64,000 nt of DNA from positions 7,158,501 through 7,222,500 of the forward strand of contig NZ_CP074380.1 of the NCBI RefSeq assembly GCF_022695595.1, given 5' to 3'. This document shows, piece after piece, positions 5,790 to 33,455 of this stretch (positions are counted from its first letter, which is position 1; the number at the start of each line of letters is the position of its first letter). The notes beneath the pieces are model-generated. The model did no database searches, was not told the origin of the DNA, and saw only the letters and a program-made list of their open reading frames with translations. Made by a program: the position numbers and the translations under genes. The stretch is from Streptomyces sp. MST-110588. GTDB taxonomy: Bacteria > Actinomycetota > Actinomycetes > Streptomycetales > Streptomycetaceae.

Positions 5790-5863
<74 letters not shown>

Positions 5864-5869
5864 CAGTGA

Positions 5870-12212: not shown

Positions 12213-13424
12213 ATGGCATATGACGCCCTGTGGGCCAGGAAAGCCGGTGTGCTGGCGACCGTCGCCGCGGCCGGGCTGATGACGACCGGTACGGCGCTCG
12301 CGCCCATACCGGCGGCGGCCCGCCCGCACACCGCGGCGGTGGTGACCGTCCCCGGGGCCCCGGCGCTGCCCGATGCGTCCCTGACGGCCCAGTCGTGGGC
12401 CGTGATGGACGTCGAGACGGGACGGACCATGGCGGGCCGGGACATGCACCGGCGGCTCGCGCCGGCCAGCACCCTCAAGACCCTGTTCGCCGTCACCGTG
12501 CTGCCGAAGTTCCCGCAGACCACCGTCCACCGGGTGGCCGCCGCGGACCTGGCGGGCATCGGGGCGGGCAGCAGCGTGGTCGGCGTACAGGAAGGCAAGC
12601 AGTACAAGGTCGCCGACCTGTGGCGCGGCGTCTTCCTGCGCTCCGGCAACGACGCGGTACGCGTACTGGCGTCGATGAACGGCGGCTGGGCCGCCACCGC
12701 CAAGGAGATGCAGGCCAAGGCGCGGGCGCTGGGAGCCGGTGACACCCAGGTGAAGTCCCCGGACGGCTATGACACGCCCGGCCAGGTGTCCTCGGCGTAC
12801 GACCTGAACCTGTTCGGCCGCGCCGGGCTGGCCAACGCCGACTTCGCGCGCTACTGCGGCACCGCGTCGGCGCAGTTCCCCGGCGACGGCGGGAGCACGA
12901 CCGAGATCCAGAACACCAACCGGATGCTCAGCGGCACCGACGGGGTGCCGCGCTACCCGGGGATCATCGGGGTGAAGAACGGCTACACCACCAACGCGGG
13001 CAACACCCTGGTCGCCGCCGCCCGGCGGAACGGGCACACGATCCTGGTCACCGTGATGAACCCGCGGTCGGGGGTGCCCAACGCCGTCTACAGCGAGGCG
13101 CGTTCCCTGCTGGACTGGGGCTTCTCCGCCGTGGGCAGCCCCCAGTCGGGACAGGCCGGCGCGCCGGCCGGCCGCGGCTTTCACGCCGGCCCCGGCGGGG
13201 ACGGGGCGGCCGGGCTGCCGCCGGTCACCGCCGAGGTGGGGGAGAGCGCTCCGCTGTCGGGCGGCGCGCTGTGGGCGGGCGGCGGTGCCGTACTGTTCAC
13301 GGCGGGGACGACGCTGGCCTGGCGGCGGCGGTCGCGGGCCCGGCCGCGCGGGCGCGGAGCGGGTTCCGGCGCGGGTTCCGGTGCCGGCGCCGGTGTCGTA
13401 CGGGGGCCGGGCGGGCCGCGGTAG
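12213..13424 (+). CDS. D-alanyl-D-alanine carboxypeptidase, S11 family
   Basis: 403 residues exported by an N-terminal signal (about residues 10-37). The penicillin-binding catalytic motifs are complete: SxxK as STLK at 86-89, SGN at 144-146 and KNG at 255-257. The enzyme trims the terminal D-Ala of peptidoglycan stem peptides outside the membrane. The C-terminus has a hydrophobic segment (ALWAGGGAVLFTAGTTLAW) and a long Arg/Gly tail, so it is membrane-anchored. The ATG at 12213 is preferred over an upstream start at 12183 because the signal peptide begins there. The ribosome site is weak. Confidence 0.92.
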   Translation: MAYDALWARKAGVLATVAAAGLMTTGTALAPIPAAARPHTAAVVTVPGAPALPDASLTAQSWAVMDVETGRTMAGRDMHRRLAPASTLKTLFAVTVLPKFPQTTVHRVAAADLAGIGAGSSVVGVQEGKQYKVADLWRGVFLRSGNDAVRVLASMNGGWAATAKEMQAKARALGAGDTQVKSPDGYDTPGQVSSAYDLNLFGRAGLANADFARYCGTASAQFPGDGGSTTEIQNTNRMLSGTDGVPRYPGIIGVKNGYTTNAGNTLVAAARRNGHTILVTVMNPRSGVPNAVYSEARSLLDWGFSAVGSPQSGQAGAPAGRGFHAGPGGDGAAGLPPVTAEVGESAPLSGGALWAGGGAVLFTAGTTLAWRRRSRARPRGRGAGSGAGSGAGAGVVRGPGGPR

Positions 13425-13529: not shown

Positions 13530-15896
13530 GTGAGCGAACCGGCGACGACGTGCAACTCGATCGGCGGCGGTGCCCGCGTCGAGACGGCCATCATGACGGG
13601 CGTCGTACATCACCTGACGGTCAATCAGTTCCAGGGTGAGGCAGCGGCGTACATCCCCGCCGCGGTACCGCGCCAGGCGCTGCCACCGACCGAAAGCTTC
13701 ACCAACCGCGGTCCCGAACGGCGTACCGTCGTCCGCGGCACCGAAGCCGGCCCGCGCCGCCACCGGCCGCTGGTCATCAACATCAGCGGTGCCGGCGGCA
13801 TCGGCAAGACGGAACTCGGCAGGATGTGCGCCCATGACCTCGGGCCGCGGTACCCGGACGGCACCTTATGCGTGGAGTTCGGCCGGTGGCGCAGGGACGG
13901 CCTGGTCGAGATCGGTGACGTCCTGGCGTACCTGCTCGAAGGGCTGGGGGTGGACCGCCGGGTGATCCCGGCCACGGCCGCGGGCCGGGCCGCCCTCTAC
14001 ACCTCCCGTACCGCCGGCCGCCGGCTGCTGCTCGTCCTGGACGACGCCCGCGAGGCGGACGACCTGACGTCGCTGATGCCCGCGTCGGCGCAGAGCGTCG
14101 TGCTGGTGCTCAGTCATCACCGGCTCACCGAACTGTTCGACGAGGCCGTGATCCCGGTCCCGCTGGGCCCGCTGGGGCCCGAGCACTCCCGGCATCTGCT
14201 GTCCGCGCTGGTGTCGGAGGACCGGATGGCCCGGGAACCGGAAGCCGCGGCGGAGCTGGTGCGGCTGTGCGCCGGGATGCCGGGCGCGCTGCGCGCCGCG
14301 GGCCGTCGGCTCCGCGAGCGTCCGCACCGGCCGGTCTCCCTCCTGGTGGACGAGTTGCGCGAGGCCGCCAACCGGCTGGACGGGTTCGCCTCGCGGGGCA
14401 GGAACGTGATGGAAGCGCTGTGGGACGGGGTGTACGAGGAACTGCCGCCCACGGCGGCGCGGCTGTACCGGCTGCTGGCCGGTCACCCGGGCCCGGACTG
14501 CACGGTGGCCTCGGCGGCTGCGCTGCTCGGGCCGGATGCGGGCGACGCGGAGGAGGCGCTGGAGGAACTGGTGCGCGCCGGCCTGCTGGAGTGTGCACGC
14601 TCCGCATCCCGCTCCCACTCCGGCTCCCCCTCCCGTTCGCAGGGGTCCTCCTCCCGTTCGTTGGACGATCGTGTCCGTGACCGCTACTTCTTCCTGGAGC
14701 TGCTGCGGCTGCACGCCGAGCGGCGAGCGGCGGAAGACGGACCGGACGACGGTCCCGGCGACGGTCCGGGTGACGGCACGGGCGACGGCGCGCAGGACGG
14801 GCCGGCCGCCGGTTGGCTGCGGGTGGCCAGGTGGTACGGCCGGCAGGCGGCCCGCGCCGAGCGGGTGATCAAGCCCGACCGGCTGCGGATCGCCGCCCTG
14901 CCGCCGGTGCACGCGGCGCCCGGGCCCGACCTCGACTTCCGCGGCGCCGCGGCGGCCACCGACTGGCTGGAGCGGGAGCGGCACGCCCTGTTCGACTGTG
15001 CGGAGCGGGCGGCCCAGGACGGCCAGGTGGACCTGGCCTGCTCCCTGGCCGAGTCCCTGGACATCCTGTTCGAGAGCCACCGCCACTACGACGATTCCGC
15101 GCGGGTGCTGCGGGCGGTGATCGAGGCGGTCGTGCGGTCCGGGCACCGGGACGCCGAGGCGTGGATGCGCTGCCTTTACGCGCGGGTGCTGTGGGAGCTG
15201 GAGCGTTACGACCGGGCGGCGGAACAGATCGAGGGCGCCTTCGCCGCCGTACGGGGCTCGGCCAACCGGCGCCTGGAAGCCGCGGTGTGGGAGCGGGCCG
15301 GCAAACTGCACCGGGAGCGCGGCGAGCCGGACCGCGCCGAGGAGCACTTCCGGCGGGCACTGGCCCTCAACGAGGAGATCGGCAACCGGCGCGGCGAGAT
15401 GATTCAGCTCTACCTCATCGCGGGCCTGCGGACCCGTTCCGGAGCCGCGGCGGAGGCCGTGGTCCTGCTGGACCGGGCGGCTGCCATCGCCCGGGGCGAG
15501 AGCACGGGTACGGACGACGCCGGCAGGGACGGGGCCGGCAGGGACGGCACCGGTACCCCGCCCGACGAACGGATGCAGGGCCGGATCGCCCATGCGGCCG
15601 GTCTGGCCAGGCTGGCGCTGGGGGAGCGGGAGGCGGCGCGGGAATGCCTTCGTACGGCGCTGGAGGTGGCGCTGCGGCGCGGCGCGGACTTCGATGAGGC
15701 GCTGACCCGTGAGGCACTGGCGGAACTGGCACGGGACCCGGCCGAAGCCGCGGAGCACCGGGCCCGGGCCCGGCAGATCTACGCGGCGGCGGCCGGGATG
15801 GTCGTGCCGGACCAAGGGCAGGGCGGCCCGGGCGGCACCGGCGAGGCGGGCGGGACGTCGGCCGGGGCGGGCGGGAACGCGGGCTCAGGGGGATGA
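13530..15896 (+). CDS. NB-ARC ATPase with TPR repeats (STAND family)
   Basis: 788 residues. The P-loop GAGGIGKT is at 87-94 and the Walker B strand LLLVLDD near 166-172. A winged-helix/ARC region follows, and from about residue 480 a helical TPR array (repeated A-W, A-L and L-ALNEEIGNRRGE-like units). There is no SARP or other DNA-binding domain before the P-loop. Instead residues 9-33 read SIGGGARVETAIMTGVVHHL, resembling short effector-association tags in actinobacterial STAND proteins. Two low-complexity Asp/Gly and Ser stretches interrupt the middle. Such proteins act as ATP-driven signalling or defence switches; no effector is adjacent. The stop overlaps the convergent gene by 12 bp. Confidence 0.85.
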   Translation: MSEPATTCNSIGGGARVETAIMTGVVHHLTVNQFQGEAAAYIPAAVPRQALPPTESFTNRGPERRTVVRGTEAGPRRHRPLVINISGAGGIGKTELGRMCAHDLGPRYPDGTLCVEFGRWRRDGLVEIGDVLAYLLEGLGVDRRVIPATAAGRAALYTSRTAGRRLLLVLDDAREADDLTSLMPASAQSVVLVLSHHRLTELFDEAVIPVPLGPLGPEHSRHLLSALVSEDRMAREPEAAAELVRLCAGMPGALRAAGRRLRERPHRPVSLLVDELREAANRLDGFASRGRNVMEALWDGVYEELPPTAARLYRLLAGHPGPDCTVASAAALLGPDAGDAEEALEELVRAGLLECARSASRSHSGSPSRSQGSSSRSLDDRVRDRYFFLELLRLHAERRAAEDGPDDGPGDGPGDGTGDGAQDGPAAGWLRVARWYGRQAARAERVIKPDRLRIAALPPVHAAPGPDLDFRGAAAATDWLERERHALFDCAERAAQDGQVDLACSLAESLDILFESHRHYDDSARVLRAVIEAVVRSGHRDAEAWMRCLYARVLWELERYDRAAEQIEGAFAAVRGSANRRLEAAVWERAGKLHRERGEPDRAEEHFRRALALNEEIGNRRGEMIQLYLIAGLRTRSGAAAEAVVLLDRAAAIARGESTGTDDAGRDGAGRDGTGTPPDERMQGRIAHAAGLARLALGEREAARECLRTALEVALRRGADFDEALTREALAELARDPAEAAEHRARARQIYAAAAGMVVPDQGQGGPGGTGEAGGTSAGAGGNAGSGG

Positions 15897-17764: not shown

Positions 17765-17771
17765 GCGTCAG

Positions 17772-17820
17772 CCGGTGTCCGGTGTCCGGTGTCCGGTGTC
17801 CGGTGTCCGGTGTCCGGTGT
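17772..17820. repeat. heptanucleotide tandem repeat, CCGGTGT x7
   Basis: Seven perfect head-to-tail copies of CCGGTGT fill exactly 49 bp immediately upstream of the GT-B-like gene. The array sits where its promoter or ribosome site would be expected. Confidence 0.98.
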
Positions 17821-18013
17821 AACAAGGGTCTGATTGTAGTGGTGCGTGCGTATCGGCCGCGCCGTTATCGCGATTTCGCCCGCACGGCATCCCCGCGCCG
17901 ACCGAACCCCTGGCAAAACGTACCCTCCCCGACCCTTTCCGGCCGCTTTCCTTGCCTTCCCCTGCCTTCCCGCGCCTTCGCTTCCGACCGCGCGGCGACC
18001 GCGCGGCGTGATG

Positions 18014-18707
18014 CTACCCCTCGCCCGGCGCTCCGCCGCCCACGGGATGCCGGCCGGCGGCCTCGGTGCGCAGGAGCCGGGGAGCATTCCCGGCGGCCGA
18101 CACCGGGCCGCCCGGTCCCTGCGAACCACCCGGAGCGCCCGAGCCGCCCGGACCGCCCAGCCGTCCCGCCAAGTGCCGCGCCCAGCCCGTCAGCCCCGCG
18201 ATGTCGATGCCGTACGGACCGGCCTCCCCGTACGGACCGGCCTCCCCATCCGGACCGGCGTCCCCGTACGGAGCGATGGCGTCGGCCCCCCTGAGCAGCA
18301 GCGCCGCCCCGCCGGCCGCGTTGCCCGGGCGGCATGCGTCAGGCCCACGGCGAGCTGGGCCAGCCCGCGCCACAGTTGCCGCTCGGGTTCCGAAGCCGCC
18401 TTCCAGGCGTCCTCCAGGACTTCGTGCGCATGGAAGGGCATCCCCGCGTCGAGCAGCCGCTGCGCTTCGGCGAGCGACTGTGCCGGGGTGCGCGGCACGC
18501 CTTCGGGCTGCCGGGCGACGCCCGGAGCGCCGTACGGCAGCGGACGGCCCAGACCGTCGCGCGGCCGGGCGTTGCGGGCCCGCCCCTGCGGGTCACGGTC
18601 CCGCCGACGCCGCGTACCCGCTCCGCCCCCGGACCGTCCTGCCCGTTGTCGCGGTCCGGGCCGTTCTGCCCGTTGTCGCGGCTGCTGTCGCGTTGCGTTG
18701 CGTCCAC
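18014..18707 (-). pseudogene. DUF309 protein, frame broken (probably twice)
   Basis: The core LLDAGMPFHAHEVLEDAWK and RQLWRGLAQLAVGLTHA is the DUF309 signature (HAHEVLE plus W and R residues), a small helical family of unknown function. After LTHAA the reading moves to the -1 frame (NAAGGAALLLRGADAIAP, then GIDIAGLTGWARHLAGRL). Restoring one G in the CCC (plus strand) at 18324-18326 gives the expected ARGNAAGG. Upstream, GRARNARPRDGLGRPLPYG has no start codon in its own frame. A GTG at 18707 opens another frame (VDATQRDSSRDNG) that needs a second -1 shift near 18610-18640. With both repairs the protein is about 231 residues. Confidence 0.65.
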
Positions 18708-19060
18708 CCCTCGATTGTGCGCCGGGGCGCGGACGCTCAGCACGCCGGCACCGGCGAGGAGCCGCCCGGCACCCGCAGGGACGCGGCACCGGAGCCTCCG
18801 GCCCGCACACCGACCGGACCGGCTCGCGGATTCCGTACAGCGCGCCGGTGGACCAACGACGCTGTTCTGTATGGCCCGGCCGTTGACCCGGTTCGGGAAA
18901 ATGTGAAGTCCCGTCTGCAGCAGGCAGATTTCGATGAGCGGAATAGTACATGCCGGGGGTTGCGAGCGTATCCTGCTTCCCGATGCGTGACTCTGAGCCG
19001 CAGCCGTCGGAGGGTGCCGGATCATTCCGCTCCGTGCGCCTCGAGGTAGGGGGAATCTCG
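18708..19060. other. 353-bp gap upstream of the biosynthetic unit
   Basis: No gene is supported. The last 190 bp are noticeably richer in A/T than the surroundings (for example around 18895-18955) and include an inverted repeat TCTGC-AGCAG-GCAGA near 18910. This is a plausible promoter and operator zone for the rightward gene set starting at 19061. I cannot place the -35 and -10 elements with confidence. Confidence 0.5.
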
Positions 19061-20122
19061 ATGAATGCGCAATCTCTGTTGCATGAATTACGTGACACCG
19101 AATACTTGGACGGAATCGATGTGGGTGCCTATCTCGATCTGACCCGCGAGCAGCACCCACAGCTGTACGCGGAACTCGACTTCGGCCGGGACGGCGCCCG
19201 GGAGGCCTTGAAGTCACTGGCCCAGGTGTTCAACGAGTTCGAGACCGACGACCGGGAGAACGGCCGTGGGGATTCCTATCGTCGAGCTCAGAAGCACATC
19301 GCCGTCCGGATGACGGGAATCCGTCGGCTTTTCGAGCTGGCCGGTGGGGTGAAGGACGTGCGGGACCTGTCTCCCACATGGCGCACGCTGGACCTGCTCG
19401 CGGGCGACGGGCTGCTCACACGCGCCCTGCGGGTGCTGGCGCCGCAGGTGCGCGACGGGGTGATCAGCAGCGACATCGCGCGCACGATGGTGACCGCGGC
19501 GCTGAGCGCGGGCCTGCCCGCGATCCGGCAGGACGCCCGGTTCCTCTTCATGCGGGACGCCGCCATGGACGCCGTCATCCTGGCCTACGGAAGCCACCAC
19601 GTGCCGTCGGACGACCGCACCACGGTGTTCCTGGAGGCCGCGCGGGTGCTGAGGCCGGGCGGGCGGTTCGTCGTCCACGACTTCGAAGAGGGCTCGCCCT
19701 CGGCGCGCTGGTTCTCCGAAGCCGTCCACCGGCACTCCGCGGCCGGCCACCCCTATCGGCACTTCACGGCGGAAGAGCTGCGCGAGGGCTTCGGTGCGGC
19801 CGGGCTCCGCGACATTCGCGTCCACCGTGTCTACGACCCCTTCATCATGGGGGCGGCCACACGCGAGGACGCCGTCGGGGAACTCGCCGATTACCTGCAC
19901 GACATGTACGGCCTGTGCGGTCTCGACCACGGCGACGCGACACGGGAATCGGTGCGGGCGCGGGTGTGGCAACTCTGCGAGGAATGTTTCCGCTTCGGCC
20001 CCGACGATGGTGGCGCCGACCGCACCGACGCGTGGCTACGAACTCCCGCCGTCCACCGAGTGGGTGGACAGTGGGTCGCGGAGATTCCACGCATCGCGCT
20101 CGTCGGAGTGGGCGAGAAATAA
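19061..20122 (+). CDS. class I SAM-dependent methyltransferase
   Basis: 353 residues from the ATG at 19061, with a GGGGGA ribosome site eight bases upstream. The SAM-binding motif I is a variant, TLDLLAGDGLLTRAL at about 109-123. The post-I region VISSDIARTMV and the motif VLRPGGRFVVHDFEEGS near residue 200 support a class I Rossmann fold. An extra helical domain of about 100 residues precedes it and a C-terminal lid of about 120 residues follows. First gene of the unit; the asparagine-synthetase-like gene starts 64 bp downstream. The substrate is not predictable from sequence. Confidence 0.8.
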   Translation: MNAQSLLHELRDTEYLDGIDVGAYLDLTREQHPQLYAELDFGRDGAREALKSLAQVFNEFETDDRENGRGDSYRRAQKHIAVRMTGIRRLFELAGGVKDVRDLSPTWRTLDLLAGDGLLTRALRVLAPQVRDGVISSDIARTMVTAALSAGLPAIRQDARFLFMRDAAMDAVILAYGSHHVPSDDRTTVFLEAARVLRPGGRFVVHDFEEGSPSARWFSEAVHRHSAAGHPYRHFTAEELREGFGAAGLRDIRVHRVYDPFIMGAATREDAVGELADYLHDMYGLCGLDHGDATRESVRARVWQLCEECFRFGPDDGGADRTDAWLRTPAVHRVGGQWVAEIPRIALVGVGEK

Positions 20123-20186
20123 CCCTCCGATCGCACGCAGGGAAAGCAAAGAAAAGTCTGGACAGGAAAGCAGGGGGACTCGGAAG

Positions 20187-21725
20187 ATGTGTGGAATTGC
20201 CGTGGAATTACGGTCACATACGCCGGGAGAAGTGACCGTCGCGCGTATCGAGAAAATGCTCGCGGAGATCGTGCACCGCGGCAATCCGGAGAACTCGGGC
20301 GGGGTCCGCGGGCTGCCGGGAGCGGCTCTGGGCTGCAACCGGCTGGCCATCGTGGACCGGGAGTCTGCGGTCCAGCCGATGTGCGACAGCACCGGCAACC
20401 TGTGGGTCGCGTTCAACGGGGAGATCTACAACCACGCCGCCCTGCGACGCGAACTGCGCCGCCTCGGCCACACCGTCCGTACCGGCTCGGACACCGAGGT
20501 CCTGCTGCACGGATACCGGGAGTGGGGCCATGACCTGCCCGCACGTCTGGACGGCATGTTCGCCTTCGTGGTGTACGACGTCGCCCGACGCCAATTCTTC
20601 GCGGCCCGCGACCGGTTCGGGGTCAAGCCGCTCTACCGGGCCACGGACGGCGACGCGGAGTACTTCGCGTCGGAGATGAAGTGCTTCCTCCCCTTCGGAC
20701 TGACGCCCGAGGTCTTCCCGCCCGGCCACTGGACGGACGGCAGCACCACGGTCCGCTACCACGAGGAGCCCGAACGGCCACCGACCGGGACGGACAGCAC
20801 GCTGGTCGCGGACTTCGGGCACCTGCTGGACGAGGCCGTTCGTAAACGGGTGAACACGGATCTGCCGATCGGCGTCATCTACAGCGGCGGTCTGGACAGT
20901 GCCTCCGTGCTGGCCCTGGCGGCACGGCACCATCCCGACGTCACCGCCATTTCGGTCGGCTTTCCCGGCTCGCCCGATCTCGCGTTCGCCATCAGGTCCT
21001 GCGCGGACCTCGGCATCCGCCACGTGGTGCGGTACCTGACCCTCGACGGTCTGGTGCGGGATCTGCCCAAGCGGGTCCGGGAGGCCGAGACGTTCGAAAC
21101 GGTCGACATCATGGACGCCTCCGTCATGGCACCCGCCTTCGAGGTCGCCGCCGAACTCGGTCTCAGGGTCGCCCTGGTAGGCGATGGGAGCGACGAACTG
21201 CTGGCCGGCTACGACCTCTTCCGGGAGCACCCCGACCCGGTGGAACTCATGCGGTACCGGGTCGGGAACCTGCACCGTACCGATCTGCAGCGGGTCGACC
21301 GGGTGTCGATGCACCGCACCGTCGAGGCCCGGGTGCCCTTCCTGGACCGCGACCTCGCCGATTTCGCCTGGTGGCTGCCGATGGACGTCAAGTACCGCGA
21401 CGGCACCGAGAAATGGATCCTGCGGGAAGCCATGGACGGCATCCTCCCGCCGTACCTCGCCCGACGTCCCAAGATCCGGATGCCCGAAGGCACCGGCCTG
21501 CTCTACCAGTTGCTGGAGCACGTCAAGGGGCAGTGGCCCGGCCGTGCCCCCGGCCGGGACCCGGAGCTGCGGCGCCGGATCGGCCTGGACCAGCCGGACG
21601 CCGCGTACCTCCTGGAGCTGTATCTGGACCAGGGCTATCCGCCGCCCCGCAGCCGTCATAAGCGGCCCGGCTGGGACTTCGCCCCCCACGGCTACTTCAC
21701 CTTCCCGGGCGCCCGGGGCCGGTGA
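20187..21725 (+). CDS. asparagine-synthetase-like, glutamine-hydrolysing amidotransferase
   Basis: 512 residues. MCGIAVEL provides the N-terminal nucleophile Cys2 of a class II glutaminase; NRLAIVD (51-57), NGEIYNH (77-83) and SDTEV are the glutamine-site elements. The synthetase domain has the PP-loop SGGLDS (233-238) and GDGSDELLAGY (332-342), and HRTVEARVPFLD late in the domain. Both half-reactions should therefore be active: ATP-dependent adenylation of a carboxylate and transfer of ammonia. Because Cys2 is present it is not a beta-lactam-synthetase-type enzyme lacking glutaminase. Its place between a methyltransferase and an ATP-grasp ligase argues for specialised amide formation rather than housekeeping asparagine supply. 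Confidence 0.85.
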   Translation: MCGIAVELRSHTPGEVTVARIEKMLAEIVHRGNPENSGGVRGLPGAALGCNRLAIVDRESAVQPMCDSTGNLWVAFNGEIYNHAALRRELRRLGHTVRTGSDTEVLLHGYREWGHDLPARLDGMFAFVVYDVARRQFFAARDRFGVKPLYRATDGDAEYFASEMKCFLPFGLTPEVFPPGHWTDGSTTVRYHEEPERPPTGTDSTLVADFGHLLDEAVRKRVNTDLPIGVIYSGGLDSASVLALAARHHPDVTAISVGFPGSPDLAFAIRSCADLGIRHVVRYLTLDGLVRDLPKRVREAETFETVDIMDASVMAPAFEVAAELGLRVALVGDGSDELLAGYDLFREHPDPVELMRYRVGNLHRTDLQRVDRVSMHRTVEARVPFLDRDLADFAWWLPMDVKYRDGTEKWILREAMDGILPPYLARRPKIRMPEGTGLLYQLLEHVKGQWPGRAPGRDPELRRRIGLDQPDAAYLLELYLDQGYPPPRSRHKRPGWDFAPHGYFTFPGARGR

Positions 21726-21814
21726 ACCGGTTCCGGCACCTGCCGAGGAAGCCCGCCGAGGAAGCCGGTTGAGGAAGCTGGACGAGGAAGCACGAAGAGG
21801 AAAGGGACGACCAC

Positions 21815-23194
21815 ATGGGGGATTCAACGGTGCTGCTGGTGTACGCCCGGGGCGGGCCGCCACCGAGCGATGCCATACCGAAGGTCGCGGCCACCACGGA
21901 CCGCCTTCACCTGCTGCTCCTGGACCCACTGCCGCTCCCGGCGGTCGCCCCGGCGGCCCGGTGCTGCACCTCGGTCACCGACCTCACCGTCGGCCGCCCG
22001 GAACCGGGTGAACTGATCGACACGATCGTCGCCCTGGCCCGCCGCACCGCGGCTGACGCGGTGCTGACCTTCTCGGAGTTCGCGCTGCTCGCCGTCGCGG
22101 AGGCCGCCGAGCGGCTCGGCCTGCGCGGACCCGGCCCGGGTGCGACCAGGGCCCGCAGCAAGCGCCTCATGCGGCGCGCCTGGGCGGACGCGGGCCTGCC
22201 CGTACCCCGCTTCCGCTACGTCGACTCGCTCACCGACCTGGAACGGGCCTGGGCCGAACTGGACCCGCCCGTGCTGCTGAAGTCGGCGTGGGGCGCCGGG
22301 TCGATCGGCCAGACCGTACTGGAACGGAGGACTCAACTGGCCGGTGCGTGGAGCCACATGCTCGGGGCGCTGACGGCGGCGAGGGCCCGTGGCATGAGCG
22401 AGCTGAAGGCCGGCGAGGCCGGCCACGAACTCATCGTGGAAGAACTCATCCCGGCCACCACCGAGTCCTGGTACGACGGATCCGGCTACGGCGACTACCT
22501 CAGCGTCGAGGGAATGGTCGTCGACGGCGTCCACCACCCGGTGTGCGTCACCGGGAGGCTGCCTACGGCGCCGGACTTCACCGAACTGGGGAACATGGCA
22601 CCCTGCGTGCTTCCCGAGGCACTTCAGCACACGGTGTCCGACCTGTCGCGGCGGGCGGTCGACGCCCTCGGCCTGGGGACCTGCGGTACCCACACCGAGA
22701 TCAAACTGATGGCGGACCGCCGTCTGTGCCTGCTGGAGACCGCGGCCCGGTTCGGCGGCCTGCTGCTCACCCAGCAGATCGAGGCCATCTACGGTGTGGA
22801 CCTGGTCGGTGCGCTCACCCGGGCGCACCTCGGACAGGACCCGGGCCTGCCGGACGGCCTGCTGACCGGCCCCGGCCGCTGCGCGGCCGGCTCGGTCAAC
22901 GTCCTTGCGACCGACGCCCGGGGCCGGCCGTGGACGACCCGGCCGGTCTTCGTCCCCGAGGCGGTGGACTGGGACCGCCTGTTGTCCCCCGGCAGCAGGA
23001 TCCGGGTGGCACCCGATTTCACGGTCCCCTCCGGTACCCTGCTGCACCATTACCGGACCGGCCACGGTTCCCTGAACCTGGCGGGTGTCCTCCTGCTCAC
23101 GGCGCCCACCCCCCAGGTTCTGCTGCGCGATGCCTACACGGTCCTCAACGGTCTCGAAAAGGCCCTGGCGGGCGCCGCCCTCGCTCATGACTGA
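21815..23194 (+). CDS. ATP-grasp ligase (L-amino acid ligase / carboxylate-amine ligase type)
   Basis: 459 residues. An N-terminal Rossmann-like lobe is followed by the ATP-grasp fold: PPVLLKSAWGAGSIG with Lys156, VEELIP (adenine-contact strand), and the metal-binding end HTEIKLMADRRLCLLETAARFGG with Glu295, Glu308 and Arg312. This late pattern resembles BacD-like L-amino acid ligases that join amino acids through an acyl-phosphate. A C-terminal beta domain of about 130 residues follows. The ATG at 21815 begins MGDSTVLLVYARGG, after a purine-rich AGAGGAAAGG. Together with the upstream amidotransferase it suggests a dipeptide or amide product. Confidence 0.82.
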   Translation: MGDSTVLLVYARGGPPPSDAIPKVAATTDRLHLLLLDPLPLPAVAPAARCCTSVTDLTVGRPEPGELIDTIVALARRTAADAVLTFSEFALLAVAEAAERLGLRGPGPGATRARSKRLMRRAWADAGLPVPRFRYVDSLTDLERAWAELDPPVLLKSAWGAGSIGQTVLERRTQLAGAWSHMLGALTAARARGMSELKAGEAGHELIVEELIPATTESWYDGSGYGDYLSVEGMVVDGVHHPVCVTGRLPTAPDFTELGNMAPCVLPEALQHTVSDLSRRAVDALGLGTCGTHTEIKLMADRRLCLLETAARFGGLLLTQQIEAIYGVDLVGALTRAHLGQDPGLPDGLLTGPGRCAAGSVNVLATDARGRPWTTRPVFVPEAVDWDRLLSPGSRIRVAPDFTVPSGTLLHHYRTGHGSLNLAGVLLLTAPTPQVLLRDAYTVLNGLEKALAGAALAHD

Positions 23195-24458
23195 CCGGCC
23201 CCGGCCGCACACCACGCCGGGCCGCCGTGCCCCCGGTCCTTCGCGCGCCGGGGTCACGACGACCTGGCGCGAGGCCCCGCCCGCGGCCCGCGCCCTGATC
23301 GGCGGCATGTTCGTCAGCCGGCTCGGCGGGTTCGTCCAGGTGTTCATCGTCCTCTACCTGACCGGCCTGGGGTTCTCCGCGACGCAGGTGAGCCTGACGC
23401 TCGCCGCGTACGGCACGGGCTCGGTGGTGGGAGTCCTCGCGGGCGGCCGGCTGTGCGATCACATCGGCGGGCACGCCACCATCGTCGGGTCCATGGTGGT
23501 GTGCTCGGCGCTGCTGCCCGCTGTTCCGTACACGAGCAACTTCACCGTGCTGCTGCTCGTCCTCGCCCTCCAGGCAGCCGCCGGGCAGGCCTACCGCCCG
23601 GCCGCGGCCGACCTGCTGAGCCGGATGCTGCCGGCCGACCGGCACGTCATGATCTTCGCGATGTACCGCTTGGCGATCAACCTCGGCGCCGCGGCGGCCC
23701 CGCTGCTGGGCGCGGTACTCATCGCCCAATCGTATGAACTCCTGTTCTTCACGGAGGCGGCCGTCGGCCTGGTCTACGCGGCCGTCGTCGCCCGTTGCGT
23801 GCCCAGGCAAGGACGCCGGGAACCAGCGGCCCGTGCCCGCCCGGGCCCGCGCGCACGCGGCTACCGTCCGCTCCTCGCCGACCGCCGCTATCTGCTCCTG
23901 CTGTTCGCGATGCTCATCAGCACCCTGGTCTACGTCCAGTACCTATCCGCCCTGCCGCTCGCCGTACACGACCAGGGCCTGTCCACCACGGTCTACGCGG
24001 TGCTCATCACGGTCAACGGGCTCACCGTCGTCGCCTTCGAACTCCCGGTCACCCGCTTCACCCAGCGGTGCCGCGTGCGGCCGGTGGCCGCCGTGGGAAC
24101 GGCACTGACCTGCCTGGGGATGACGCTGTACGGACCGTCCTGGGGCATCGCCGGACTGGTGGTCGCGACCCTGATGTGGTCCTTCGGGGAAGCCGTGTCG
24201 GCTCCTACCCTGTTCCTGGCCTACCCGGCCAGGGCGGGCCCGCCGGATCTGCGGGGCCGCTATCTGGGCGCGGCGAGTGCGATGTACGGCCTCGGAGCCA
24301 CCGCGGGCCCGGTTCTCGCGGTCGCCGGCTGGAACCTGCTCGGCCGTTCCCTGTGGTGGTGGTCGGCCGTCGCCGGGCTGATGGCCGTACCCGCCGCATG
24401 GGCAGGTGTACGGCCCGGCGCACACGGCGACGGCTCACGTCCGGCCGTCGGCCCCTGA
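23187..24458 (+). CDS. MFS transporter, probable exporter of the cluster product
   Basis: 423 residues with about twelve membrane helices. The start ATG at 23187 overlaps the ATP-grasp stop by eight bases, so the two are translationally coupled. The N-terminal domain has the MFS motif-A-like loop GVLAGGRLCDHIGGHATI between helices 2 and 3. A central Arg-rich loop lies near residues 205-235. By position it should export or give self-resistance to the product of the preceding three enzymes. The last gene of the unit: the next gene is convergent. Confidence 0.88.
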   Translation: MTDRPRPHTTPGRRAPGPSRAGVTTTWREAPPAARALIGGMFVSRLGGFVQVFIVLYLTGLGFSATQVSLTLAAYGTGSVVGVLAGGRLCDHIGGHATIVGSMVVCSALLPAVPYTSNFTVLLLVLALQAAAGQAYRPAAADLLSRMLPADRHVMIFAMYRLAINLGAAAAPLLGAVLIAQSYELLFFTEAAVGLVYAAVVARCVPRQGRREPAARARPGPRARGYRPLLADRRYLLLLFAMLISTLVYVQYLSALPLAVHDQGLSTTVYAVLITVNGLTVVAFELPVTRFTQRCRVRPVAAVGTALTCLGMTLYGPSWGIAGLVVATLMWSFGEAVSAPTLFLAYPARAGPPDLRGRYLGAASAMYGLGATAGPVLAVAGWNLLGRSLWWWSAVAGLMAVPAAWAGVRPGAHGDGSRPAVGP

Positions 24459-24546
24459 ACCGGCCGACCGGAACCGTTCGGCCGAGGCTGCCGCGCAGGG
24501 CGTCGGCTTGGCGCCCGGTGCGGAACAGCCCGTGCTTGGTGCGCAT

Positions 24547-24885
24547 TCATTGCGCATCCTCGACCTGGGTGTCGTAGAAGCAGAAGTGGTCCTTGATCCC
24601 CGCCACTTCGGGTTTCGGCTCGGGATAGGCCCACGCCACGTCCTCCGGGCCGCCGGGCAGCGACCAGTAGGAGGCGTCGCCCTTGAAGGGGCAGTGGGTG
24701 CGGGTCGGTGAGGGGGTCAGCAGCTCGGTGCGTACGTCCTCGGGCGGGAGGTAGTAGCGCACGGGCAGCCCGGTCTCGTGCAGCAGCAGCGGGCGACGGC
24801 TCTCGGCCAGCACCTGCCCGTCCCGCTCCACGCGGACATGCGCGCTGCCCTGCTCAACGGTGATGCGGTGTCCCAACGGGGGCAT
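24547..24885 (-). CDS. DUF427 domain protein
   Basis: 112 residues from the ATG at 24885 (AAAGGA six bases upstream). It is a single DUF427 domain: HVRVERDGQVLAESRRPLLL, LPVRYYLPPEDV, THCPFKGDASYWSLPG and DHFCFYDTQVED. These are small beta-barrel proteins of unknown function that are widespread in actinomycetes. It stands alone between the convergent MFS gene and the divergent phosphatase gene. Confidence 0.85.
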   Translation of the reverse strand: MPPLGHRITVEQGSAHVRVERDGQVLAESRRPLLLHETGLPVRYYLPPEDVRTELLTPSPTRTHCPFKGDASYWSLPGGPEDVAWAYPEPKPEVAGIKDHFCFYDTQVEDAQ

Positions 24886-25031
24886 GTCCGTTCCTTTCGT
24901 CCTGGCGAAGTGGCGGTCATGATAGGCCGCCGGGCCCCTTCCGGCGACCGGGCGCCGGACCGCTCCGCCTTCACGGCGGTCCTCCGGCCAAGGACAGCCC
25001 GAAGTCATGATGAATGTGGCAAAGTGACGAT

Positions 25032-27155
25032 ATGGCTGACCGGGGAGCGAAGCCGCCCGCCGCGTCGCCGCCGGACGACTGGCCCGCTCACCCGGACCTG
25101 ATGCTGGCCCTCAACGGCATGGGCGGCTTCGACTGGGACCTCGACAGCGGGCTCCTGCACATGGACGACTCCGCTCTCAAGGTCTTCGACCTGACGCCGG
25201 AGGAGTACGACTCCCGCCCGGCGACCCTGTCCTGCCGTCTGCCGCCGGACGAGGGGGCCCGCCTGGACGCCCTGGTCTCTCGCGCCCTGAAGGACGGCAG
25301 CACCTCCTACGGCGGCTCCTTCCGTATCCGGCTGCGGGACGGCACGCCGCGCCGGGTCCACACCCGCGCCAGCATCCGCCGCGACGGCACCGGCCGCCCG
25401 CACCGCATCATCGGCGTCATACAGGACGCCGACCAGGAATACGACCAGGAGTATGGCCAAGAATCCGATCATGAGCACGGCCAGGAACACGAGCACGGAG
25501 ACGACCGGGCCGCGCGTCTCCCGGCGGTCGTCGAGGAGGCCCCGCGCCACACCGGCGTCGTAGAACGCACCACGGCCGCCCTGGCCCATGCCCGCACCGT
25601 CCACGACGTCATCGCCGTGCTCGGCGACGCCCAGGGACTGAGCAGGCTGGGCGCGCAGAACGTGATCGTCGGCCTGGTCGAGGCGGGCCGCATCCGCCTG
25701 GTCTCCGAAGGCCGGGCGGGCAGCTTCGTCCCTGACCACGAGCTGACCCGCGTCGATGACGAGTTCCCGATGAGCGAAGTGGTACGCACCCTCGCCCCGC
25801 GCTTCGTCCGCTCCCGCCAGGAGTTCGCCACCCACTACCCCCGGCTGTGGCCGCACGTCGAGCCCCTGGACATCGGCTCCGCCGCGTATCTGCCGCTGAT
25901 CGCCCAGGCCCGGCCCATCGGCGTGATCGGCCTCTTCTACCAGGACGAGCACCCCTTCGGCGCCCAGGAACGCAGCCTGCTCATCGCGCTGGGCTCCGGC
26001 ATCGCGCAGAGTCTGGCCCGCGCCATGCTCTACGACCAGGAGCACGACCTCGCCGAGGGCCTCCAGCAGGCGATGCTGCCCCGCCGTATCCCGGGCGTCC
26101 CCGGCGCCCAGATCGCGGTCCGCTACCACTCCGCGCGCCTCGGCCGGGACATCGGCGGCGACTGGTACGACGTGATCCCGCTGCCCGCCGGAAGGGTCGC
26201 GGCGGTCATCGGAGACGTACAGGGCCACGACACCCAGGCCGCGGCCGTCATGGGGCAACTGAGAATCGTGCTGCGCGCCTACGCCACCGAGGGCCACGCG
26301 CCCGCCACCGTCATGGCCCGCGCCTCCGCCTTCCTGCGTGAACTGGACACCGACCGCTTCGCCACCTGCACCTACGCCGACGCCGACCTGACCACCGGCG
26401 CCGTACGGTTCGTACGGGCCGGGCACATCGACCCGCTGCTGCGCCACGCCGAAGGCATCTGCCGCCGGCTGCCGGTGGCCGGCGGACTGCCTCTGGGACT
26501 CTCCGCCGAGTTCGCCCATCTGGACTACCCGGTCACCACCGTCCACCTCACGGCCGGTGACACCCTGCTGCTGTTCACCGACGGCCTGGTGGAACAGCCC
26601 GGCACCGACCTGGACGACGGGATGCGGCAGCTCGCCAGGGAAGTACGGGAAGGCCCGCAGGACGTCCAGCGGCTGGCCGACCGGCTGTGCGAGTCGGCGG
26701 CGCAGCGGTCCGCCGGGGACGACATGGCCCTGCTGCTCCTGCGCCGCAGCGGCACACCCCCGCGGCCGGCCACCGGGCGCTTCCAGCAGCAGGTGGCACC
26801 CGCCGACCCCGAGGCGCTCTCCGCCGCCCGCCAGATGGTCCGCACGGCCGTACGGTCCTGGGGCGCCCGGGAACGGTCCGAGGAGATCGAACTGGTCGCC
26901 CACGAACTGATCACCAACGCACTGCTGCACACCGACGGGGCGGCCACGGTGGCGGTCAGCATGCCGCCCGGCGCCGAGCGGCGGCTGCGCCTGGAGGTCG
27001 AGGACTGCTCCAGCACCCTGCCCCGGCGCCGGGAGCCGGGCGAGGCGGGGGTGTCGGGGCGCGGGATGCTGCTGGTGGACCGGCTGGCCGATGTGTGGGG
27101 TGTGGAGCCACGCGGCACCGGAAAGTGCGTATGGTGCGAGTTCGCCTGCCCGTGA
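25032..27155 (+). CDS. PAS-GAF-SpoIIE phosphatase with C-terminal HATPase (copy 1)
   Basis: 707 residues from the ATG at 25032 (an alternative GTG lies at 25014). In order: a PAS-like sensor (about 20-125, GGFDWDLDSGLLHMDDSALKVF); a linker rich in His, Asp, Glu and Gln (about 134-158); a GAF domain (about 180-330); a PPM/SpoIIE phosphatase (about 345-560, with GGDWYDVIPLP, GDVQGHD and FTDGLVEQP plus GDDMALLLL); and a HATPase_c_2 serine-kinase-like domain (about 580-700, HELITNALLHTDG, GRGMLLVDRLAD). Such proteins regulate anti-sigma/anti-anti-sigma partners. A paralogue with the same order lies at 38854-40992. Confidence 0.92.
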   Translation: MADRGAKPPAASPPDDWPAHPDLMLALNGMGGFDWDLDSGLLHMDDSALKVFDLTPEEYDSRPATLSCRLPPDEGARLDALVSRALKDGSTSYGGSFRIRLRDGTPRRVHTRASIRRDGTGRPHRIIGVIQDADQEYDQEYGQESDHEHGQEHEHGDDRAARLPAVVEEAPRHTGVVERTTAALAHARTVHDVIAVLGDAQGLSRLGAQNVIVGLVEAGRIRLVSEGRAGSFVPDHELTRVDDEFPMSEVVRTLAPRFVRSRQEFATHYPRLWPHVEPLDIGSAAYLPLIAQARPIGVIGLFYQDEHPFGAQERSLLIALGSGIAQSLARAMLYDQEHDLAEGLQQAMLPRRIPGVPGAQIAVRYHSARLGRDIGGDWYDVIPLPAGRVAAVIGDVQGHDTQAAAVMGQLRIVLRAYATEGHAPATVMARASAFLRELDTDRFATCTYADADLTTGAVRFVRAGHIDPLLRHAEGICRRLPVAGGLPLGLSAEFAHLDYPVTTVHLTAGDTLLLFTDGLVEQPGTDLDDGMRQLAREVREGPQDVQRLADRLCESAAQRSAGDDMALLLLRRSGTPPRPATGRFQQQVAPADPEALSAARQMVRTAVRSWGARERSEEIELVAHELITNALLHTDGAATVAVSMPPGAERRLRLEVEDCSSTLPRRREPGEAGVSGRGMLLVDRLADVWGVEPRGTGKCVWCEFACP

Positions 27156-27439
27156 CGGGGTGACTGGTGCCCGTGACGGGGTGGCTGCCCGGGAGCGGGA
27201 CGGGCCTGCGTGTACGGGCTCCGAAGAACCGGCCAACTGCCGGTGACCATACCGCCGCTGGTGCGGACGGTGATAGAGGTAGAGGGTGCAGAGGGTGCAA
27301 CAGCACCACAGCACACCACCGCAACGCACTACTGAGACACACCACCACCGCACCGCACGAGAACGGCATCGGGCGTCGGGGGCCGGGCCGGGCGCACCCC
27401 GGCGCCGGCCGCCGGCACGGCGAAGTGAGGACGAGCGCT

Positions 27440-28903
27440 ATGGGATCGGGGCCTGCCGAGCAGGAGGACCACGCCCGCCGGGCGACGGCGCGGCTGGACG
27501 CCGAGGGCGTCCGGACCATCGCCCTGACCTGGGTCGACAACGCGGGCATCGTACGCGTCAAGACCGTCCCGACGCCGCGTCTGGCGCAGGTCGTCCACAG
27601 CGGCGTCGGCATGTCGCCCATCTTCGATGTGTACACCTCCGACGACATCGTCGCGGCCTCCGCGCACCTGGGCGGCCCCGACGGCGACCTGCGCCTGTTC
27701 CCCGACCTGGACCGGCTCACCGTGCTCGCCGCGCAGCCCGGCTGGGCCTGGGCGCCGGTCGACCGCTACGACCAGCTCGGCACCCCGCACCCCGCCTGCC
27801 AGCGGCAGTTCGCGCGCCGGATGGCGGACCGGGCCGCCGCCGAGGGCCTGGAGATGCGGATGGGGTTCGAGACCGAGTGGGTGGTCGTGCGCGACCCGGC
27901 CGCCGTGGCGCCCGGCGGGTTCGCAGGGGCCGGGGGCGTGGGCGGGCCCGCATGGCCGGACGGCACCGGCGGGGCCGCCGTCCCCGGTTCCTCCGAAGTG
28001 CTGCACTACCCCTGCGCCGGTCCCGCGTACGGCATGACCCGCGTGGTGGAACTCTCCGACTACCTCCGCGATGTCGCCGAGGCGCTGGCCGTACAGGGCA
28101 TCGAAGTGCTCCAGCTCCACCCCGAATACTCCCCTGGCCAGTTCGAGATCTCCACCGCCCCCGCCGACCCCGTACGGGCCGCCGACGACCTGGTCCTGGT
28201 GCGCGAGACCATCCGGGCCGTCTCCCAACGCCACGGTCTGCGGGCCTGCTTCGCCCCCACGGCCGTGGCCGGACAGGTCGGCAACGGCTGCCATCTCCAC
28301 CTGAGCCTGCGGCGCGAGGGCCGCAGCCTGCACCGTGACCCGGACGCGCGGTGGGGACTGGCGCCCGACGCCGTACGGTTCCTCGGCGGCATCCTGGACT
28401 CGCTGCCCGCGCTGCTCGCCGTCGGCGCTCCCTCACCCGCCAGTTACCTGCGGCTGGTGCCCTCGCAGTGGGCAGGCGCGTACCGGTGCTGGGGCGTGGA
28501 GAACCGGGAGGCCGCCCTGCGCCTGGTCACCGGCTCCCCCGCCGACCCGGAAGGCGGCAACGCCGAGATCAAGTGCTTCGACGCGGCTGCCAATCCCTAT
28601 CTCCTCATCGGCACGGTCATCGCCGCCGGACTGCACGGCATCACCTCCGGCGGACAGCTCCCGCCTCCGGTCACCGGCGACCCGGGCGCCCTGGGCGTAC
28701 GGGAGCGTGCCCGGCGCGGCATCACCCGGCTGCCCGTCTCGCTCACCGAGGCCGCCGACCACCTGGAAGGGGCCGCGCCACTTCTCGAGGCGCTGGGGGA
28801 GGTGCTGTACGGCGCCGTCATGGCCGTACGAAGGGCGGAGGCCGCGCAGTTCGCCGAGAGCGACCCCGAGGAGATCACCGCCGCGTTCCGCTGGCGGTAC
28901 TGA
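27440..28903 (+). CDS. glutamine synthetase-like protein, FluG / gamma-glutamyl-amine ligase type
   Basis: 487 residues from the ATG at 27440. It has the type I glutamine synthetase fold: WVDNAGIVRVKTVP at the N-terminus, MGFETEWVVV for the metal-binding glutamate, NGCHLHLSLR for the ATP/Glu-site histidine, and RCWGVENREAALRLV plus NAEIKCFDAAANPYL. A Gly/Ala/Pro-rich insertion (about 155-180) is unusual. It overlaps the following amidohydrolase as TGATG, reconstructing as a split pair the fusion seen in fungal FluG. Actinomycete relatives include gamma-glutamylpolyamine and ethanolamine ligases, so housekeeping glutamine synthesis is unlikely. Confidence 0.85.
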   Translation: MGSGPAEQEDHARRATARLDAEGVRTIALTWVDNAGIVRVKTVPTPRLAQVVHSGVGMSPIFDVYTSDDIVAASAHLGGPDGDLRLFPDLDRLTVLAAQPGWAWAPVDRYDQLGTPHPACQRQFARRMADRAAAEGLEMRMGFETEWVVVRDPAAVAPGGFAGAGGVGGPAWPDGTGGAAVPGSSEVLHYPCAGPAYGMTRVVELSDYLRDVAEALAVQGIEVLQLHPEYSPGQFEISTAPADPVRAADDLVLVRETIRAVSQRHGLRACFAPTAVAGQVGNGCHLHLSLRREGRSLHRDPDARWGLAPDAVRFLGGILDSLPALLAVGAPSPASYLRLVPSQWAGAYRCWGVENREAALRLVTGSPADPEGGNAEIKCFDAAANPYLLIGTVIAAGLHGITSGGQLPPPVTGDPGALGVRERARRGITRLPVSLTEAADHLEGAAPLLEALGEVLYGAVMAVRRAEAAQFAESDPEEITAAFRWRY

Positions 28904-30159
28904 TGCCCGGACACCCGCCCACTCCCGCCCCGGAATCATCCCTCCTGTCCCTCACGTCTCTCTCGCCCCTCCCGCCCCTGGTGGATCACCACTGCCACGG
29001 CGTGCTCCGGGGCGAGCCGGACCGCGCCACGTTCGAGGCGCTGCTCACCGAATCGGATCGCCCGCCCGCCGCCGGAACGTCCTTCTTCGACACCCAGACC
29101 GGGTTCGCCGTCCGCCGCTGGTGCCCGCCGCTGCTCGGGCTGCCGGCCCACTGTCCGCCCGAGGACTACCTCGCCCGCCGGCGCGAACTGGGCCCGGCAC
29201 GCACCCGTGAACTCCTGCTGCGCGCCACCGGCATCGGTACCTACCTCCTGGACACCGGCCTGCCCGGCGACCTCACCGGGGTGGCGGAGACGGCCGAGGC
29301 CGGCGGCGCCGCCGGCCACGAGGTCGTCCGCCTGGAATGGCTGGCGGAACGCCTGGGACGGCGCATGGCGGACGGCATGCGGCCAACGGGGGAGGGCCGG
29401 GCAGCCCCGGTCACAGCGCCAGCTCCAGTCACAGCGCCAGCCCCGGCATCAGCCCCAGCCACGGCCGCGGCGGAGTTCACGGCCGCCCTCGCCGACGCCG
29501 TACGGGACGCGGCGCGCGACGCCGTAGCGTTCAAGTCGGTGGCCGCCTACCGCCACGGGCTGGCCCTGGCCCCCGAACCACCCGCCCCCGACGCCGTCCT
29601 GACCGCCGCCCGCACCTGGCTCGCCGCCGGCGCCCCGCGGCTGACCGACCCCGTACTCCTGCGTCACCTCCTGTGGCTGGCCGTCGCCACCGGCCGCCCC
29701 CTCCAACTGCACACCGGCTTCGGCGATCCCGACCTGCGTCTGGACCACGCCGACCCGGCGCTGCTCACCGGCTTCGTACGGGCCACCGCCGACACCGGCA
29801 CCGACCTGGTCCTGCTGCACTGCTACCCGTACCACCGACAGGCCGCCTACCTGGCGAACGTCTTCCCGCACGTCTACGCCGACATCGGCCTGACCCTGAC
29901 CCACACCGGCCCGCGCGCCGCATCCGTACTCGCCGAGTTCCTCGAACTCGCCCCCTTCGGCAAGCTGCTGTTCTCCACCGACGCCTACGGCCTGCCCGAG
30001 CTGTACGTCGTGGGCAGCGCCCTGTTCCGTACGGCCCTGGACGCCGTCCTGACCGGATGGGCCCGCTCCGGCGCCTGGTCCACCGCCGACGCCGGCCGCG
30101 TCGCGGCCCTGATCGCCGCCGGCAACTCCCGCCGTGTGTACGACCTGCCGGAACCCTGA
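28903..30159 (+). CDS. FluG-type amidohydrolase (TIM-barrel metal hydrolase)
   Basis: 418 residues. The start ATG at 28903 shares one base with the upstream stop. Metal-site motifs of the amidohydrolase superfamily are visible: VDHHCHG (HxH) near residue 27, AFKSVAAYRHGL carrying the strand-4 lysine, LQLHTGFGDPDL, VLLHCYPYHRQAAYLA and LLFSTDAYGLPELY with the catalytic aspartate. A low-complexity Ala/Pro/Thr insertion interrupts the domain near residue 170. With the partner ligase it probably handles a gamma-glutamyl amide: one enzyme makes and the other cleaves. That pairing is inference. Confidence 0.83.
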   Translation: MPGHPPTPAPESSLLSLTSLSPLPPLVDHHCHGVLRGEPDRATFEALLTESDRPPAAGTSFFDTQTGFAVRRWCPPLLGLPAHCPPEDYLARRRELGPARTRELLLRATGIGTYLLDTGLPGDLTGVAETAEAGGAAGHEVVRLEWLAERLGRRMADGMRPTGEGRAAPVTAPAPVTAPAPASAPATAAAEFTAALADAVRDAARDAVAFKSVAAYRHGLALAPEPPAPDAVLTAARTWLAAGAPRLTDPVLLRHLLWLAVATGRPLQLHTGFGDPDLRLDHADPALLTGFVRATADTGTDLVLLHCYPYHRQAAYLANVFPHVYADIGLTLTHTGPRAASVLAEFLELAPFGKLLFSTDAYGLPELYVVGSALFRTALDAVLTGWARSGAWSTADAGRVAALIAAGNSRRVYDLPEP

Positions 30160-30243
30160 CCGCCCGGCCCCCTTCACCGACGGCAGCCACCGCACCCCCA
30201 CCCACCGGGCGCCGGTCCCCGGTAAGGACCACCACGTACTCTT

Positions 30244-31545: not shown

Positions 31546-31550
31546 CGACC

Positions 31551-33126: not shown

Positions 33127-33455
33127 GTTTCTCCTGGGGGAAGCAACGACGGTCGTGACCTGACGACATTAGGGGAAACCCGGGAGAGGGGACATGGGGT
33201 CAGCGGGACAGTGGATGCGGGGATTGCCCCATGGCGGACGGCCATCCGGCTTCGTACGGTGGGACGTTGGGCATCCGAGGTGGCGGATTGAGCATCCCTG
33301 GCGGCGGGTTGAGTACCCCGAGCGGCGGGCGGCCGGTCTCCAGGTACGGCCGGGCTGCTCGCGTACGGGCGACCGCCTGCGTACGACCAACTGCCTGCGT
33401 ACGGCCAACTGCCCGCTGTCGTCCCTGTACCGGCCGGTCGGCGCCTCCGCCCCCG
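33127..33455. other. 329-bp intergenic region with short direct repeats
   Basis: No gene is supported. It lies between the peptidase start and the phosphoketolase stop on the same strand, so it must hold the peptidase promoter. A near-perfect 18-bp tandem duplication reading CTGCGTACGRCCAACTGC occurs around 33378-33413, and GGCGG-GTTGAG units repeat around 33282-33330. Confidence 0.6.

Follow-up and report, generated by a model that had tools for sequence, protein, structure and literature searches.

Layout and gene content of the cassette

The 64,000-nucleotide stretch analysed here, which we call the window, belongs to the 7.9-Mb genome of Streptomyces sp. MST-110588 (labelled G000). It carries a block of four genes, encoding a methyltransferase (MT), an AsnB-like amidotransferase, an ATP-grasp ligase and an exporter of the major facilitator superfamily (MFS), that a first-pass annotation had proposed as a biosynthetic unit. 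All four open reading frames were found on the plus strand where that annotation had placed them, and their domains were assigned by Pfam and NCBIfam. The MT (19061..20122, ATG at 19061) is a class I S-adenosylmethionine (SAM)-dependent methyltransferase of 353 amino acids (Pfam Methyltransf_11, 9.2e-11). It is followed by the AsnB-like glutamine-dependent amidotransferase (20187..21725, ATG at 20187, 512 amino acids beginning with MCGIAV), a protein of the D-x-M-D-type subfamily with two Pfam domains (2.9e-56 and 5.3e-43) and a match to NCBIfam TIGR01536 (1.3e-106). The ATP-grasp amino-acid ligase (21815..23194, 459 amino acids) matches the BacD model at 9.8e-49, and the MFS exporter (23187..24458, ATG at 23187, 423 amino acids) matches Pfam MFS_1 at 3.3e-35. 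For the exporter the nearest NCBIfam model is YdeE (2.7e-15, under its cut-off), and the nearest MFS models include efflux pumps.

The gaps between MT and AsnB (64 nt) and between AsnB and ligase (89 nt) are short rather than tight, as they had been described; the eight-base overlap of the ligase with the exporter is as reported. Upstream of the MT gene lies a conserved, AT-richer region (18803..19060, plus strand), which is presumed to contain the promoter or leader of the operon. Its GC content is 0.643 as compared to 0.762 directly before it (17765-18802) and 0.731 for the whole window, in line with the earlier description, and a simple promoter scan returned no sigma-70-like site in this region. 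GC content at third codon positions is 0.836, 0.881, 0.887 and 0.891 for MT, AsnB, ligase and exporter, respectively (mean 0.911, standard deviation 0.024 for the 39 called window genes of more than 200 amino acids), all four being under the window mean and MT alone clearly so. No carrier, adenylation, condensation or ketosynthase family was listed for the four proteins in Pfam and NCBIfam at E<=0.001, which bears out the annotated lack of carrier protein, non-ribosomal peptide synthetase (NRPS) and polyketide synthase (PKS) domains. The four-gene block is real and compact.

Conservation, edges and probable mobility

The block is more than a chance arrangement, since it is conserved as a unit in Streptomyces rimosus, in a third Streptomyces and in a member of the Streptosporangiaceae (family inferred). 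The expectation that the four genes stay together in relatives thus held. In S. rimosus NRRL WC-3904 (locus L031; genome G048 was taken as the same genome), protein identities of MT, AsnB, ATP-grasp and MFS are 91, 93, 93 and 90%. In the third Streptomyces (G068, locus L033) the gene order is the same at 68, 77, 84 and 81%. The Streptosporangiaceae genome (G925, locus L086) shows about 53, 66, 55 and 48% (range 48-66%), with MT, AsnB and ATP-grasp in the same order and a divergent MFS gene just upstream. Genes in the fetched loci were called by a crude codon-position caller, and their starts are approximate. One MT copy deposited for S. rimosus (P0245) has a deviating stretch in the C-terminal half, of the kind expected from a pair of frameshifts.

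When the whole window was compared by blastn (E<=1e-10) with the S. rimosus loci L031 and L038, a single match was obtained, covering 18803-24531 (5763 columns, 90.9% DNA identity), and the rest of the window gave no further match in these loci. The cassette (18803..24531, plus strand, upstream region included) therefore has sharp edges and is one bounded unit. In S. rimosus it lies on a different contig, with flanks that differ from the orthologues of the window neighbourhood. Those orthologues are found on another G048 contig (L102), which matches window positions 12430-13137, 18256-18650, 24572-24898, 25013-27159, 27435-31547 and 33434-35420 at 78-85% and contains no match to the cassette. 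DNA comparison revealed no flanks in common between the window and the G068 locus either. The two species thus carry the cassette at separate locations, and its sequence is more similar between them than that of its neighbours. This is most simply explained by horizontal transfer, through which the cassette has probably moved between genomes. A point against it is that L102 also lacks window 13.1-18.2 kb and contains unmatched DNA, and so does not represent a clean empty site.

The block is rare. AsnB was found at E<=1e-100 in 3 of 323 genomes of the genus Streptomyces, its own included. At E<=1e-20, MT was found in 18 of 392 genus genomes including its own, three of them (its own, G048 and G068) at 68% identity or more and 15 at 36-44%, and in 4 of 394 genomes of a class sample, again with its own included. 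For the ATP-grasp ligase the count was 32 of 199 genomes at E<=1e-20 (own included), three of these at 84% or more.

The AsnB-like amidotransferase

The protein scores above the cut-off of TIGR01536, the glutamine-dependent asparagine synthetase family (357.7 against 267.1 bits), and below those of NF006949, the E. coli-type asparagine synthetase B (317.9 against 499 bits), and of TIGR03104, the N-acetylglutaminylglutamine amide (NAGGN) amidotransferase (211.4 against 570.1 bits). It also stays below the cut-offs of the models for lasso-peptide or macrolactam cyclases (NF033535, 147.3 against 525 bits; NF033561, 48.7 against 300 bits). Its structure model (mean predicted local distance difference test, pLDDT, 91.4) has E. 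coli AsnB (1ct9) as best structural match, with a template modelling (TM) score of 0.85 at 29% identity. TsnB9, beta-lactam synthetase and carbapenam synthetase are further structural neighbours, the latter two at TM 0.65-0.73.

Residues were compared by alignment to E. coli AsnB (from NC_000913.3) and to 120 listed relatives. The window protein retains the glutaminase residues Cys1, R49, N74, G75, E76 and D98 and those of the PP-loop, and the N-terminal Cys is present in 115 of the 120. The GSDE motif is kept, as are, in all 120, the equivalents of Asp351, Glu352, Arg387 and Lys449; at position 348 the window protein has Asp and the relatives either Glu (74) or Asp (46). The acceptor region is altered. 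The Arg of the E. coli TTIRAS motif (Arg325 in the review cited below, 324 counted from Cys1) is Met in the window protein and Arg in none of the 120 listed relatives (87 Met, 14 Ile, 7 Ala, 12 others), and the following residue is Asp in 117. According to a review, this Arg helps aspartate binding and transition-state stabilisation in E. coli AsnB (PMC12018205).

The strain encodes two other AsnB-like proteins, which share 43-44% identity with the window protein in the glutaminase part and 32-33% over the longest aligned pieces. In the tree these two and E. coli AsnB are separated from all 128 remaining sequences at a support of 1.0. Grouping with housekeeping synthetases, which would have spoken against a specialised role, was therefore not seen, as judged by E. 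coli AsnB and by both paralogues, either of which may be the housekeeping enzyme of the strain. The clade of relatives at 60% identity or more is unsupported (0.085); the Streptomyces core is supported (0.993).

The methyltransferase and the ligase

The MT belongs to a small family with an extra N-terminal region, comprising 65 proteins at E<=1e-3, of which 57 reach E<=1.5e-38 (own included). Stretches resembling GRGDSYRRAQ, HDFEEGSP and AGHxYxHFT are conserved among 41 aligned sequences. Its AlphaFold model (mean pLDDT 94.5) displays an ordinary class I MT fold when compared with PDB structures, in agreement with the class assigned.

Seventeen distant MT loci (36-44% identity) were fetched, and in nine of them (L065, L066, L067, L068, L071, L072, L074, L076 and L077) selected neighbours were scanned with Pfam; ATP-grasp genes were found in five of the nine (L065, weak; L071, L072, L074 and L076). 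In L072 (3623-9978) and L076 (3668-10005) the distant MT homologue lies amid two ATP-grasp genes, an MFS gene and an M20 peptidase-like gene. In L068 (8998-15390) an MT homologue (39%) is followed by genes for anthranilate synthase parts, a glycosyl-transferase-family-3 (TrpD-like) protein, indole-3-glycerol-phosphate synthase and a class-II 3-deoxy-D-arabino-heptulosonate 7-phosphate synthase; L069 and L070 have gene sizes similar to this run.

The nearest solved relative of the ligase is BacD (3wo1, E 4.4e-46 over residues 62-352); Pfam ATPgrasp_N matches at 1.4e-07, and the score for NF053745, the BacD alanine-anticapsin ligase, stays at 166 bits against a cut-off of 850. Among 33 aligned proteins, the BacD-like THTE motif (T292-E295) is present in all and the Arg of AARF (R312) in 32; Lys156, Glu232, T292-E295, Lys297 and Glu308 are identical in all 33. 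By the region matched and these motifs the protein fits the ATP-grasp L-amino-acid ligases, its predicted activity being the joining of two free amino acids. In a review, BacD is described as taking small residues first, with Trp332 as key pocket and specificity residue (PMC6920838). This position is Leu316 in the window ligase and Trp in none of the 33, which suggests a roomier pocket.

A second BacD-like ATP-grasp gene (44%) lies outside the window in the same genome (7425286-7426632; L034:7284-12368), adjoining an MFS gene and a gene for a 707-amino-acid protein with a C-terminal PPDK_N ATP-binding domain. The same three gene kinds occur in L036, and at least the ATP-grasp and PPDK_N pair in L037.

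MT and AsnB as a recurring pair

The first-pass annotation had treated the four genes as equal partners. They are kept together as a unit, as described above, but MT and AsnB also recur without this ligase. Plasmid pTM2 of Tistrella mobilis encodes, in succession, homologues of MT (38%) and AsnB (45%) and a LysE exporter. In the actinobacterial locus L087, AsnB (51%) precedes MT (41%), downstream of genes for an ATP-grasp protein, an OPT transporter, a RidA-like protein and two proteins like 5-enolpyruvylshikimate-3-phosphate (EPSP) synthase. Linkage was further assessed by counting exact contig-size coincidences between hand-typed lists of relatives, as compared to 100 shifted controls. MT and AsnB relatives showed five coincidences (control mean 0.38, maximum 1), of which four remain, as the two genes would not fit on one of the contigs (1726 bases). 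We read MT-AsnB as a recurring pair and the likely core making a modified amino acid, to which ligase and exporter would be exchangeable add-ons.

Several observations count against the proposed reading of the cassette. AsnB relatives at about 48-51% sit in dissimilar clusters, with EPSP-synthase-like, NRPS or halogenase genes. Locus L088 combines AsnB with two EPSP-synthase-like, RidA-like, ATP-grasp and OPT genes and lacks this MT; on a plasmid of Streptomyces microflavus AsnB accompanies three EPSP-synthase-like genes and an NRPS gene; and in Streptomyces cellulosae it adjoins halogenase and NRPS genes. Since these settings differ so much, the acceptors of the AsnB relatives may differ as well. 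No AsnB was seen within about 9 kb in any of the 17 distant MT loci, so that the MT family has no fixed link to amides. The Nonomuraea pair P0006/P0128, like P0013/P0124, is a candidate pairing by equal contig size. ATP-grasp and AsnB gave three coincidences (control mean 0.47, maximum 3), MT and ATP-grasp none; wide linkage of the ligase is unsupported by these lists.

Neighbouring genes

Elsewhere in the window, genes for a glutamine-synthetase-like protein, an Amidohydro_2 protein and an MFS transporter lie in a row (27167-31545) and are matched in the S. rimosus locus L102; the pairing is FluG-like. A 788-amino-acid protein with NB-ARC and TPR regions is encoded at 13530-15896, and ARAGORN found a tRNA-Pro (ggg) at 5790-5864 as the sole tRNA of the window.

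Proposed pathway and alternative explanations

The chemistry of each of these enzyme families is established and is applied here to the cassette proteins by homology. The AsnB-like enzyme would hydrolyse glutamine at its N-terminal Cys, channel the ammonia, activate a carboxylate as acyl-AMP and amidate it. Rather than aspartate itself, the acceptor is probably a modified aspartate or another amino-acid-like molecule. The MT would add a methyl group to this molecule, with nitrogen as the most likely site, and the BacD-like ligase may then couple this building block with a second amino acid via an acyl phosphate. The resulting dipeptide amide would be exported by the MFS protein, the presumed order of steps being AsnB, MT, ligase and export. 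That the cassette is a carrier-free pathway of this kind for a small exported amide is the reading we favour, with modest confidence. The original proposal is supported in part: carrier-free making of a small methylated amino-acid or dipeptide amide fits every domain, and the unit is conserved; the substrate, the product, the methylation site and the order of steps are inferred.

The most serious competitor, which we nevertheless consider unlikely, is a plain asparagine synthetase caught in a small operon, whose asparagine would be ligated into a dipeptide and methylated, the amide being the Asn side chain. Such an enzyme would agree with the TIGR01536 score, with E. coli AsnB as nearest structure and with the retained D351, E352, R387 and K449 equivalents. 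The residues named in PMC11615228 are likewise kept by motif, which leaves room for plain asparagine formation, and with Plu1440 an L-amino-acid ligase is known that places Asn N-terminally (PMC6920838). Against it stand the loss of the aspartate-binding TTIRAS Arg throughout the listed relatives together with the Asp that nearly always follows, the score below NF006949 and the specialised clusters in which subfamily members sit. As both paralogues of the strain also lack this Arg, its loss alone is no proof of a new substrate, but a pointer. Formation of a ring within one molecule without added ammonia, as by beta-lactam or lactam synthetases, has slight probability at best: beta-lactam synthetase and carbapenam synthetase are structural neighbours, but E. 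coli AsnB is clearly closer, and ring-forming AsnB-type enzymes are known to have lost the glutaminase Cys, which is retained here and in nearly all relatives, as are the glutamine-binding residues of the window protein.

It is improbable that MT and AsnB act like FzmH-FzmA or TsnB9, with a glutamyl hydrazide or hydroxamate as nitrogen donor and an N-methyl hydrazide or hydroxamate as product. TsnB9 is found among the structural neighbours of the model, and PMC6133997 describes FzmA and TsnB9 as homologues of AsnB that are associated with N-X groups borne by glutamyl carriers. The sharp-edged cassette, though, holds no further gene able to form an N-N or N-O bond, while in the benzohydroxamate cassette SaAmOx-AS and SaAmOx are present as partner genes (PMC13418202). 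A role in resistance or detoxification, in which a toxic amino-acid analogue would be methylated, amidated and pumped out, would account for the rarity of the unit, its different placing in related species and a terminal exporter whose nearest models include efflux pumps. We hold this to be very improbable, since three enzymes consuming ATP or SAM would be costly and relatives of the AsnB occur in clusters with NRPS, halogenase and EPSP-synthase-like genes.

Relation to known systems

The carrier-free pathway preferred here would belong with the carrier-free ATP-grasp peptide pathways, as a variant. It resembles bacilysin-type pathways in the presumed formation of a dipeptide by an ATP-grasp L-amino-acid ligase. 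Bacilysin clusters have an MFS exporter beside BacD and are not known to carry AsnB or MT; the cassette lacks anticapsin genes, and its ligase differs from BacD in score and at the Trp332 position. The NAGGN system, consisting of an amidotransferase and a GNAT/ATP-grasp synthase, follows the same logic of ATP-grasp ligation and AsnB-type amidation. In contrast to it, the cassette has an MT instead of an acetyltransferase and an additional MFS exporter, and its AsnB is below the NAGGN cut-off. The nearest printed logic to MT-AsnB, likened by description and not by sequence, is that of fosfazinomycin: FzmA, an AsnB homologue, and the N-methyltransferase FzmH are proposed to act sequentially on one amino-acid acyl nitrogen, and FzmA released hydrazine from glutamylhydrazide, while transfer to arginine was not reconstituted (PMC6133997). 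The hydrazine-forming genes needed there are lacking in the cassette.

The EPSP-synthase-like/AsnB clusters (L087:3119-11931, L088:5636-13626 and L091:9253-19931) share the AsnB subfamily (48-51%) and, in L087, an MT of the same family. They differ from the cassette in two or three EPSP-synthase-like enzymes, which presumably make or alter the acceptor, and in an ATP-grasp protein of another type (dapdiamide-like, below cut-off) or an NRPS. No characterised example of such a cluster turned up in our search, nor did the open-access literature searched contain a cluster with the composition of the cassette, consistent with the first-pass annotation, which had recognised none. Apart from the broad AsnB family TIGR01536, no curated system model tested gave the cassette proteins a score that reached its cut-off.

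Significance

As a tentative and wider proposal, the MT and the D-x-M-D-type AsnB may form a portable two-enzyme module, found from actinobacteria to an alphaproteobacterium, that would make a new kind of methylated amino-acid amide and to which genomes would add different finishing systems: an ATP-grasp dipeptide ligase with an MFS exporter, LysE export alone, or EPSP-synthase-like enzymes. Related AsnB proteins alone would serve NRPS clusters. The window cassette might then be the minimal, self-contained and mobile version, its product being a new class of exported dipeptide amide. Because it has no carrier protein, NRPS or PKS domain, a unit of this kind is likely overlooked by rule-based genome mining. 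The AsnB subfamily, with intact glutaminase motifs and an altered acceptor region, provides a handle on the set of clusters in which its members occur. Moreover, the cassette unites enzymes and exporter in 5.7 kb, is present in two actinobacterial families and has a counterpart in S. rimosus at 91% identity; it can be cloned in one piece and is directly testable.

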